Of a DNA stretch of 30,795 nucleotides, positions 95 through 4,099 are shown piece after piece. The stretch's first letter is position 1, and the number at the start of each line of letters is the position of its first letter. The notes beneath the pieces were generated by a model. The model ran no database searches, was not told where the DNA came from, and saw only the letters and a list, made by a program, of their open reading frames with translations. This stretch comes from a virus. A program made the translations under genes and the position numbers. Location: positions 1-30,795 of IMG/VR virus record IMGVR_UViG_3300020281_000089; one strand, 5' to 3'.

Positions 95-225
95 CGCCAC
101 TTATTCTTTTACAGGAAATAAGAAACCTGGCGGGAGATAATCCCATCCGCACCACTTGCTTTTAGGAAGCAAGAAACCAAAGAGGGTCTAATGACTCCAC
201 CACCTAGTTTTAAGAACTAGGAAAC
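95..225 (-). repeat. Three tandem covarying hairpins, candidate structured RNA
   Basis: Three hairpins with the flank pattern GTTT-stem-TGGYG (minus strand) lie 48 and 55 nt apart. The stems are CCTAGTT/AACTAGG (203-209 with 215-221), CTTGCTT/AAGCAAG (155-161 with 167-173) and CTTATT/AATAAG (100-105 with 117-122, extendable by a G-U pair). Two loops are 5 nt; the third is enlarged. At stem positions 2, 4 and 5 the bases differ between copies but pairing is always kept (for example T-A, C-G and G-C at position 5). That is the signature of selected RNA structure. The array sits between the last small gene and the terminator at 53-75, so it would be the 3' part of that transcript. It matches no RNA family I can recall. 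Confidence 0.55.
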
Positions 226-1550: not shown

Positions 1551-1626
1551 GGTATCTTCCTGGCCATGTTAATTGCATTCCAGCAATGAGCAGTGAAGTA
1601 AAAGCAAATACGAATAATAAAGTCAT
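1543..1626 (-). CDS. Tiny membrane peptide (27 aa)
   Basis: MTLLFVFAFTSLLIAGMQLT followed by WPGRYRG forms a 27-residue peptide that is almost entirely one membrane helix with a positively charged end. The ATG overlaps the TGA of zwf (ATGA at 1623-1626) and its TAA overlaps the GTG start of the next gene. That interlocking on both sides is the main evidence that it is translated. Single-helix peptides of this size occur among photosystem and cytochrome b6f subunits, but the sequence is not one I recognise, so no role is assigned. Confidence 0.55.
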   Translation of the reverse strand: MTLLFVFAFTSLLIAGMQLTWPGRYRG

Positions 1627-2987
1627 GCTGGATAATCCCAATCAGTTAAAAAGTCTACTTTGTGTTGTGGTCCCCACCCACCAGTATAAAGGTATGGAGC
1701 AGTGCGTATGGGGCAAGAACTCCCAGTGCAAAGTAAATCATCTACAATTCTCCATGATTCCATTACCTCATCGGCGTGAACAAAATGTGATTGGTCTCCG
1801 TTGATGGCATCGTATAAGAGTTTTTCATATCCATCGATTGCTCTGTCTTGGGGGTACTCGTGGGTGAGAGTAGCGAGTTCAAGATTATCATTAAGCCCAG
1901 GAGATTTAATGTCGAGACTAATATCAAGATGAGGACTAGGTTGGAGACGAATAACAATGCGATCTTTAACTTCTCCATCGTAGAGTTTTAGCGGTGGTTC
2001 TTTGAGTTTGATAACAACTTCCACACAACCATAAGGCATCTTCTTACCAGTTAAGACGCGAAAAGGAACACCCTCCCAACGCCAGTTATCGACATAAAGA
2101 GAACCAGCGACGAAGGTAGGAGTGATACTGTTAGGATCAACACCCTCTTCATCACGGTAGCCTGCGTATTGTCCAAAGATTACATCCCTCCCTAAACGAG
2201 TAGCAGCAAGAACTTTTGTTTTCTCACGACGAACCTCCCTAGCATTCATTTTGCTAGGTGGTTCCATAGCAATCAATGCAAGAACCTGTAAGATATGGTT
2301 CTGCAACATATCACGGACTGCACCAGCAGTTTCATAATATTGTGCTCGCCCATCACAACTGATAGTTTCAGTTGCAAAGATTTGCACTTCTTCTATGTAT
2401 TGACGATTCCAAAGTGGTTCCAACAAAATGTTGCTAAACCTAGTAGCGAGAATGTTATTAACAGTATCTTTACCAAGATAATGGTCAATGCGATAGACCT
2501 GTTTCTCGCGTAGATGTCGCTCCACCACAGACTGTAAATTATCAGCAGATTTATAGTCGTGTCCAAAGGGTTTTTCGATAACCACCCTGGACCTTTCTGG
2601 GTCATTGAGGAGTCCTGCTTCTTTGAGATTGACGATAGCATTCTCATAGCGTTCTGGCGGTACGGACAAGAAGTAAGTATTATCTTCCAGATAATCTGGT
2701 AAGTGTGCCAGAGTCTCTGGCATATCCAAATCTGTTCTAATATAATCCAGATGATGTAAAAACTCTTCTGGATATTCTCCAAGAGATTCCTTCCACATTT
2801 GTGCGGTAGGTTCTCTTCTAGCAGAACCAGTAATGACAAAATTCTCTGGAAGAAGATCTTTCTCCCAGAGTTTATAAAGTGCAGGTATAAGTTTCTTCTT
2901 GCAAAGGTCTCCCGTTGCTCCGAAGATAACTATACCACTAGTGAGCGGTTCCGTTTCCATCGTATTTGTCTGATTCGTAGTATACAT
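1623..2987 (-). CDS. zwf: Glucose-6-phosphate 1-dehydrogenase
   Basis: The enzyme oxidises glucose-6-phosphate to 6-phosphogluconolactone and makes NADPH, the first step of the oxidative pentose-phosphate pathway. Visible motifs are the nucleotide-binding IFGATGDL (about 21-28), EKPFG (138-142) and the substrate-binding, catalytic RIDHYLGK (166-173). The start chosen (2987) has AAGGTGAAA just upstream. The frame is open to an ATG at 3056 that overlaps the gnd stop as TAATG, which would add 23 residues. At 454 residues it is shorter than the usual 480-510, although the C-terminal GGWGPQ region is present. It follows gnd and is followed by tiny membrane-protein genes. Cyanophages are known to carry zwf with gnd to redirect host carbon toward NADPH and nucleotides. 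Confidence 0.95.
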   Translation of the reverse strand: MYTTNQTNTMETEPLTSGIVIFGATGDLCKKKLIPALYKLWEKDLLPENFVITGSARREPTAQMWKESLGEYPEEFLHHLDYIRTDLDMPETLAHLPDYLEDNTYFLSVPPERYENAIVNLKEAGLLNDPERSRVVIEKPFGHDYKSADNLQSVVERHLREKQVYRIDHYLGKDTVNNILATRFSNILLEPLWNRQYIEEVQIFATETISCDGRAQYYETAGAVRDMLQNHILQVLALIAMEPPSKMNAREVRREKTKVLAATRLGRDVIFGQYAGYRDEEGVDPNSITPTFVAGSLYVDNWRWEGVPFRVLTGKKMPYGCVEVVIKLKEPPLKLYDGEVKDRIVIRLQPSPHLDISLDIKSPGLNDNLELATLTHEYPQDRAIDGYEKLLYDAINGDQSHFVHADEVMESWRIVDDLLCTGSSCPIRTAPYLYTGGWGPQHKVDFLTDWDYPA

Positions 2988-3055
2988 TTTCACCTTTTCG
3001 TATCCCGAAATATATCGTGGATAGTACAAACGGTATTGAAATCCAGGTGAGTGCA

Positions 3056-4099
3056 TTACCTAACATCGTGTCCTCCGAACATTGCCCGCATACCGTTTAG
3101 AACCTTGGCCGCGAAAGCACCAAGACGGCGTGAATTAAAACGTTCATACAAAGCACTACTGATAACAGGAGCGGGTACCCCAAGATCCACAGCAGCGTGA
3201 ACCGTCCAACGACCCTCACCACTATCGCTGACTCCCCCATCGAACTTGCTAAGCTCTCGATCGCTCCTAAGTACATCAGCGGTAAGATCAAGTAACCAGC
3301 TGCCAATAACGCTACCGCGACGCCATAACTCAGCCACTTTAGCAACGTCAATATCATATTGATAATCTTCTGGATTCTCCATCGGAGCAACCTCAGCATC
3401 TCCTGCTTTGACATACTTGGAACCTGCATTTGCTTCGTGTAGGATGTTAAATCCTTCAGCATATGCCTGCATGATACCATACTCGATACCATTATGCACC
3501 ATCTTTACAAAGTGACCAGCGCCTGGATCGCCGCAATGCATCCATCCGTACTCTTCTGGATAGAGCTCGTAACCACGTCTGTCGGTAGTTCGTGGGGCAG
3601 CATCAATGCCTGGTGCGAGGGCGTCAAAGATAGGACGGCAGACGGATACTGCATGATTTGCACCACCAACCATAAGACAGTATCCACGCTCCAAACCGTA
3701 AACACCACCAGAAGTGCCACAGTCAAGATATTGGATGCCCAACTTAGACAACCTTTCTGCCCTTTTGCGAGAGTCCTTAAAATTGCTATTGCCATGATCA
3801 ATAATAATATCTCCTTCCACACAAAATTGTAGTAACTCATTTAGTGTGTCCTCCACGGTTTCTGCTGGCACTACCATCATAAAAATTCCTGGCACTTTAC
3901 CAGTCAGTTCTGATCCATTGTGAACTACTTGAACAAGGCTTTCCAGAGAAGTGGTACATCCACTGATATAACCCGCTTCAAATTGTTCTTGAGCTTTTGC
4001 ATAGTTGTTTCTGTACCCCCATACTTCGTGTCCTTCTGCAATAAGACGGCGGGACATACCTTCGCCCATCCGTCCCAATCCAATCATTCCTACTTTCAT
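3056..4099 (-). CDS. gnd: 6-phosphogluconate dehydrogenase, decarboxylating (short form)
   Basis: The enzyme converts 6-phosphogluconate to ribulose-5-phosphate and CO2 with reduction of NAD(P)+. The N-terminal Rossmann motif is GLGRMGEG (7-14), DHGNS lies at 101-105, the substrate-binding DCGTSGG at 126-132, and the catalytic HFVKMVHNGIEYG around 196-208 with Lys199, His202, Asn203 and Glu206. At 347 residues it belongs to the short 6PGDH group (about 300-350 aa) and not the 470-residue form typical of most bacteria and of cyanobacterial hosts. The start at 4099 follows AGGATTG. The stop overlaps the extended zwf start. With zwf it supplies both NADPH-producing steps; no transaldolase or cp12 gene is in the window. 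Confidence 0.95.
   Translation of the reverse strand: MKVGMIGLGRMGEGMSRRLIAEGHEVWGYRNNYAKAQEQFEAGYISGCTTSLESLVQVVHNGSELTGKVPGIFMMVVPAETVEDTLNELLQFCVEGDIIIDHGNSNFKDSRKRAERLSKLGIQYLDCGTSGGVYGLERGYCLMVGGANHAVSVCRPIFDALAPGIDAAPRTTDRRGYELYPEEYGWMHCGDPGAGHFVKMVHNGIEYGIMQAYAEGFNILHEANAGSKYVKAGDAEVAPMENPEDYQYDIDVAKVAELWRRGSVIGSWLLDLTADVLRSDRELSKFDGGVSDSGEGRWTVHAAVDLGVPAPVISSALYERFNSRRLGAFAAKVLNGMRAMFGGHDVR

Follow-up and report, generated by a model that had tools for sequence, protein, structure and literature searches.

The wcaG RNA was put forward as a riboswitch candidate by Weinberg et al. in 2010 (PMC2864571). A legend in that report names pseudoknots for the manA and epsC RNAs and, within that legend, none for wcaG. 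The view that wcaG is a 5' untranslated element of sugar genes has been repeated in later cyanophage genome papers (PMC9964418, PMC9602691). The 2010 report also contains the STAXI motif (RF01728), a pseudoknot repeated two to three times (PMC2864571). T4-like phages carry composite promoter-terminator motifs known as PeSLs (Arbiol 2010; Comeau 2014; both as cited in PMC4503421), which are described there as lying between shuffled cassettes and as combining a terminator stem-loop with a promoter of the host type.

The locus compared here with these systems lies at the beginning of a viral DNA stretch of 30,795 nucleotides, called the window below (IMG/VR record IMGVR_UViG_3300020281_000089). 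Tandem pseudoknots in a 3' untranslated region are also found in the upstream pseudoknot domain of TMV, where a tRNA-like structure follows them. The flavivirus xrRNAs share this feature with the window, and both likenesses are analogies of layout between unrelated sequences and viruses. Judged from sequence comparison, the element in the window is an expanded wcaG RNA of four tandem units, three of which are H-type pseudoknots.

Relation to wcaG and other RNA families

The Rfam model of the wcaG RNA (RF01761) matches positions 86-181 on the minus strand with 102.3 bits, against a gathering cut-off of 42. The covariance model is matched over its full length (positions 1-98 of 98), its consensus of hairpin, small hairpin and hairpin is present, and the alignment contains no non-standard pair. 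A weak second match of 25.7 bits at 189-286 is explained by the two additional units that lie there. The preliminary description of this locus had recognized three hairpins and knew no named RNA family for them, and this has to be revised, since two of the three belong to RF01761. Matches to wcaG were found in at least 177 phage records, all of them Synechococcus or Prochlorococcus phages or cyanophages, and in at least 119 viral stretches.

The window array shares with RF01761 the units B and C, the hairpin between them, a cyanophage origin and a sugar-nucleotide gene downstream. It differs from the family as described in three respects. The model covers only B and C of the four units in the window, and units A and D lie upstream of them. 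The Rfam structure line consists of plain hairpins, whereas the corresponding units appear here as pseudoknots; covariance models of the Rfam kind cannot represent pseudoknots. The array also lies at a 3' end with a promoter behind it, as opposed to the 5' leader of the published view.

The STAXI motif resembles the array in its tandem pseudoknots, usually in two to three copies, and differs in its occurrence in Enterobacteriales and in its gene neighbours; the window holds no match to RF01728 at gathering or relaxed Rfam thresholds. The preliminary description had drawn an analogy to RNAs C and D of T4, which likewise are phage RNAs adjoining tRNA genes. When the rnaC and rnaD sequences were folded and inspected, neither showed a GTTT..TGG unit or any evident similarity to the array, and rnaC ends in a tRNA-like T arm. 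The analogy was abandoned.

Units of the window array

All units are read on the minus strand, in the order D-A-B-C. Unit D (254-284) is a hairpin of AGAC (284-281) and GTCT (272-269) with the loop TCGGTATC, followed by an A-rich linker and CTGG. Its loop base C279 pairs with G260, the last base of the TAG stop codon (262-260) of the upstream gene, which sits in the linker. In unit A (200-228) the first helix (S1) is aaG (227-225) with ctt (214-212), the first loop (L1) is UUU, and the second helix (S2) is CCTAGTT (221-215) with AACTAGG (209-203), followed by TGG; its hairpin core at 200-225 reads GTTT-CCTAGTT-CTTAA-AACTAGG-TGG. Unit B (152-178) has an S2 of CTTGCTT (173-167) and AAGCAAG (161-155), with TGG at 154-152, and its core at 152-177 is GTTT-CTTGCTT-CCTAA-AAGCAAG-TGG. 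The S1 of unit B is weak in the window (GG:CC). A small hairpin of GGGA and TCCC (131-145), which is paired in the Rfam model alignment, separates B from C. Unit C (97-129) combines an S1 of CAGG (129-126) and CCTG (115-112), an L1 of UUU, and an S2 of CTTATTT (122-116) and GAATAAG (106-100), followed by TGG; the core at 97-126 is GTTT-CTTATTT-CCTGTAAAA-GAATAAG-TGG.

The three hairpins with common GTTT and TGG flanks that had been noticed earlier were recovered on the minus strand (200-225, 152-177, 97-126), and the differences between their stems are compensated in the sequence, as had been stated. Their tandem arrangement extends to a fourth unit at 254-284. A simple pattern search of the window with mismatches allowed was uninformative, with 13 matches against 9.1 expected.

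Array set and controls

Relatives of the array proved to be abundant in viral contigs. At least 127 distinct arrays were collected among the matches listed from IMG/VR and phage records; the set was gathered by a core pattern of the known motif and by the neighbours of the window's upstream gene, so that its frequencies are biased. Units were scanned for as GTTT-stem-loop-stem-TGG, and two or more units within 120 nt were counted as an array. Gene calls in the array contigs are simple open reading frames, and terminators and promoters are consensus matches.

The scan found 468 units in 1.46 Mb of 207 related viral sequences (0.16 units per kb per strand), forming 156 arrays. The same scan of 66 bacterial loci (0.52 Mb) found 17 scattered units (0.016 units per kb per strand) and no arrays. 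The difference in unit density and array counts excludes chance hairpins as an explanation. A cellular origin was rejected as well: in a genome-wide scan with the core pattern, the 66 bacterial matches listed are read as chance occurrences because none belongs to a named cyanobacterium record and none is accompanied by a second unit.

Hypothetical proteins are annotated over the array match in several isolates, namely SSM2_190 in S-SM2, gp208 in Syn9, SRSM4_042 in S-RSM4 and SynMITS9220M01_186. These are probably spurious reading frames over a structured RNA.

Pseudoknot pairing

Across the 127 distinct arrays, the loop begins with bases that can pair with those up to and including the G of GTTT. 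The S1 pairs include CTGG/CCAG, CAGG/CCTG, CCTG/CAGG, CCAG/CTGG and CTAG/CTAG, and further TCAG/CTGA, ATGG/CCAT, ACGG/CCGT and AAAG/CTTT. Among 54 distinct C units, all cells of both the pseudoknot helix and the stem are paired, with 114 double-changed cells against 26 after shuffling. The covariation score of these units is 0.608 versus 0.213 for shuffled sequences, and none of the slid registers of the same 54 units rises above 0.166. Their S1 has a mean of 3.81 contiguous pairs out of 4, a value that did not exceed 2.69 in 1000 shuffles. The pairing is shorter across arrays in the A type (2.60 contiguous pairs versus 1.77 shuffled, maximum 2.53) and in the B type (2.62 versus 2.16, maximum 2.44). 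The complementarity and covariation of these bases with the start of the loop indicate that each GTTT unit is an H-type pseudoknot, whose S1 is made of the three to four bases ending in the G of GUUU. The preliminary description's proposal of selection on RNA pairing is borne out by this covariation across relatives, which exceeds the shuffled controls.

The UUU of the first loop and the AAA of the last loop are invariant in C units, and U.A-U triples are plausible there. The unpaired GUUU, AAA and UGG hardly vary across arrays, a pattern that hints at a specific partner.

Modularity and D units

The D type consists of a 4-bp hairpin with the loop NYGG, an A-rich linker and CTGG, and precedes the GTTT units in 69 of 123 arrays. 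Its stem covaries (AGTC/GACT, CGTC/GACG, GGTC/GACC, CACC/GGTG). In 54 distinct units the loop Y and a linker R form a pair without exception, C-G in 33 and T-A in 21. Beyond this single loop-linker pair, no second helix was established for the D unit.

The number of detected units of both types is two in 58, three in 26 and four in 38 of 122 arrays; three GTTT units occur in 16 of 127. In S-SM2 (143118-143525), a gp206-like gene is followed by two D units, a small gene (MAAKGSAAKS...) and then units B and C; by its sequence, a gene cassette appears to have divided this array. In the 86-aa gene upstream of the window array, the last codons and the stop share sequence with unit D (260-284), and the protein tails of relatives (SVSSQN, DTDGL, YPVAE) appear to track the unit type.

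Position in the transcript

The array follows two genes on the minus strand. The first gene of its transcript encodes 72 aa (517-735; phrog_552), and syntenic relatives are annotated as a Phd-like antitoxin. The second encodes 86 aa (260-520; phrog_481), its relatives are annotated as "similar to gp206", and its 3' end runs into unit D. Transcription probably starts at a promoter-like site at 759-787 (TTGACT, 17 nt, TATAAT), identified as a consensus match only. An intrinsic terminator lies directly behind the array (51-77, core 53-75), and a sigma-70-type promoter at 40-68 overlaps it, with its TTGCAT (68-63) in the terminator loop and, after 17 nt, its TATAAT at 45-40. Behind this promoter begins a GDP-mannose 4,6-dehydratase gene (MKVALIT..., ATG at 21), which occupies 1-21 and is cut by the window end. 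The N-terminus MKVALIT recurs in array contigs, and the gene is annotated at the same place in the relative S-SKS1. The terminator at 53-75 and the promoter at 759-787 had both been proposed earlier and are present as consensus matches. The earlier placement of the array in the 3' untranslated region of the upstream gene's transcript is likewise supported by the stop codon, the terminator and the promoter of the next gene.

A same-strand gene ends within 100 nt 5' of the array in 89% of arrays, and in 72 of 122 the first unit contains its stop codon. A promoter matching 10 of 12 positions is found between the upstream gene and the array in only 4 of 122, and a small-RNA gene with its own promoter was rejected on this ground. 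An intrinsic terminator lies within 40 nt behind the last unit in 100 of 127 arrays. In 86 of these 100, a sigma-70-like promoter (9 of 12 or better) overlaps the terminator, against 6.2 expected from shuffled sequences. The -35 box of the composite is in the terminator loop, the -10 box is past the T tract, and the median distance from the -10 box of such promoters to the next ATG is 21 nt. Since the promoter of the next gene is inside the terminator, the primary transcript of that gene cannot contain the array. Only two terminator-promoter composites were found in the S-SM2 genome, one of which is that of the array. The combination of a terminator stem-loop with an early promoter in these 86 arrays resembles the PeSLs as they are described in PMC4503421, a likeness by description only; two features set the composite apart, the position of its -35 box in the loop of the terminator and the pseudoknot array ahead of it.

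A tRNA gene takes the place of the terminator in 10 of 124 arrays, as it does in the isolates S-RIM8, S-CREM1, S-RSM4, S-H9-2 and S-CAM1. The 16 arrays (about 13%) with neither terminator nor tRNA are mostly trailed closely by an open reading frame. In S-CREM1, annotations of wcaG, manA and abiF RNAs cluster among tRNA genes (2513-3335). The window itself has a tRNA-Pro at 810-885, downstream of minus-strand reading frames at 1623-4099 that resemble two metabolic genes typical of cyanophages, those for glucose-6-phosphate dehydrogenase and 6-phosphogluconate dehydrogenase.

Sugar-nucleotide enzymes predominate among the genes downstream of arrays, with 47 of 115 in one epimerase/dehydratase cluster. 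In at least two relatives of the junction behind the phrog_481 gene (L139 and L142), the terminator, the promoter and an epimerase or sugar gene are kept without the array, and the array is therefore dispensable. From sequence, the array-free junction would be either a natural deletion or the ancestral state.

Possible functions

A 3'-end-forming site, either a terminator or the 5' end of a tRNA, lies right behind the array in both main contexts, and this favours a role for it in the 3' end of the message that comes from the upstream gene. We propose that the D-A-B-C array may serve a short phage mRNA as a boundary element or as a 3' end that resists nucleases, and assign this reading a probability of about 0.4. 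The array would form the 3' untranslated end of a short early transcript running from about 759 to the terminator at 53-75, and would fold directly behind the last translating ribosome. After termination, its compact pseudoknotted 3' end could withstand host ribonucleases; in phages with the tRNA context, a resistant end could arise after RNase P cleavage. The array would prolong the life of the upstream mRNA and set it apart from the next gene, which has a promoter of its own. Comparison among relatives shows the pseudoknots, the modular build, the link to the upstream stop codon, and a terminator with a separate promoter for the gene behind it; from these we infer the protection of the mRNA. 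A strong terminator hairpin by itself already protects a 3' end, so that up to four extra units need another reason. The near-invariant unpaired bases, the arrays followed by neither terminator nor tRNA, and the junctions that lack the array also weigh against the proposal. In its favour, cyanophages are reported to increase the RNase E of their host and to keep their own transcripts safe from it (PMC9692554). Two RNA-seq papers on S-PM2 (PMC5931967, PMC10976474) contain nothing on the wcaG array element.

In the published view of a metabolite riboswitch, for which wcaG was named as a candidate in PMC2864571, the pseudoknots would sense a sugar nucleotide or related metabolite and gate the terminator before the GDP-mannose dehydratase gene. 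In its favour are the invariant unpaired bases, a terminator no more than 40 nt away in 100 of 127 arrays, and the predominance of sugar-nucleotide enzymes downstream (47 of 115 in one cluster). However, the downstream gene has its own promoter past the array in 86 of 100 cases, several isolates carry tRNA genes rather than sugar genes behind the array, and both the D units and the start of the array are linked to the stop codon of the upstream gene. Control of the downstream gene would require readthrough of the terminator. The array does lie upstream of gmd, with the terminator and gmd's own promoter between them, and would be a 5' untranslated region only in readthrough transcripts. A 5' riboswitch of sugar genes fits poorly, and we consider sensing of this kind unlikely. 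Attenuation or antiterminator pairing was rejected, as a permutation test showed the arms of the terminator to match their own array no better than the arrays of other phages in complementarity. Readthrough into a long sugar gene cluster could instead be brought about by a processive antiterminator of the EAR or HK022 put type, with the array binding RNA polymerase. EAR, JUMPstart and put are precedents in phage or polysaccharide operons, and the arrays lie directly ahead of terminators and surface-sugar gene clusters. This is distinctly improbable: in the tRNA context there is no terminator that polymerase would have to get through, basal expression does not need the array because an independent promoter lies in the terminator, and the window has no match to EAR or epsC RNA at gathering or relaxed Rfam thresholds.

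The transcript could also be trimmed to the pseudoknots, leaving a stable RNA of 100-230 nt that would titrate a host RNase or RNA-binding protein, by analogy with flavivirus sfRNA. Such a decoy had been suggested in the preliminary description, together with a stable small RNA and a protein-binding array, and these functions are conceivable. Tandem pseudoknots with invariant L1 UUU and L3 AAA at a 3' end before a terminator would suit it, and repeated units are typical of multivalent binding. The scarcity of own promoters (4 of 122) and the variation in unit number from two to four speak against it, and we regard it as improbable. Lastly, the units might act as DNA, as homology blocks at gene ends through which cassettes are shuffled, in the manner of T4 PeSLs or integron attC sites. 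They do form chains where small cassette genes end, a gene lies between the D-D and the B-C part in S-SM2, and the overlapping terminator and promoter resemble PeSLs as cited in PMC4503421. On the other hand, RNA is favoured by covariation that tolerates G-U pairs, by a pseudoknot geometry that requires a single strand and by the strict orientation to transcription, and the units are too dissimilar for mere homology blocks, which makes a recombination module very improbable.

Implications

The wcaG RNA has been an orphan riboswitch candidate since 2010. In the broadest and more speculative form of the 3'-end proposal, which we hold as doubtful, wcaG RNAs would not be riboswitches but modular tandem-pseudoknot 3' ends of cyanophage mRNAs that start at the stop codon, grow or shrink by the unit, and either block host ribonucleases or yield a stable decoy RNA. 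Bacterial viruses would then have a counterpart to the tandem pseudoknots with which eukaryotic RNA viruses resist exonucleases. If the array is the pseudoknotted 3' end of the upstream message, ligand searches for wcaG would be misdirected, and the Rfam model with its "cis-regulatory" label would describe a fragment of a larger modular RNA. The array is a concrete candidate for the means by which T4-like cyanophages may protect or separate their transcripts during infection.
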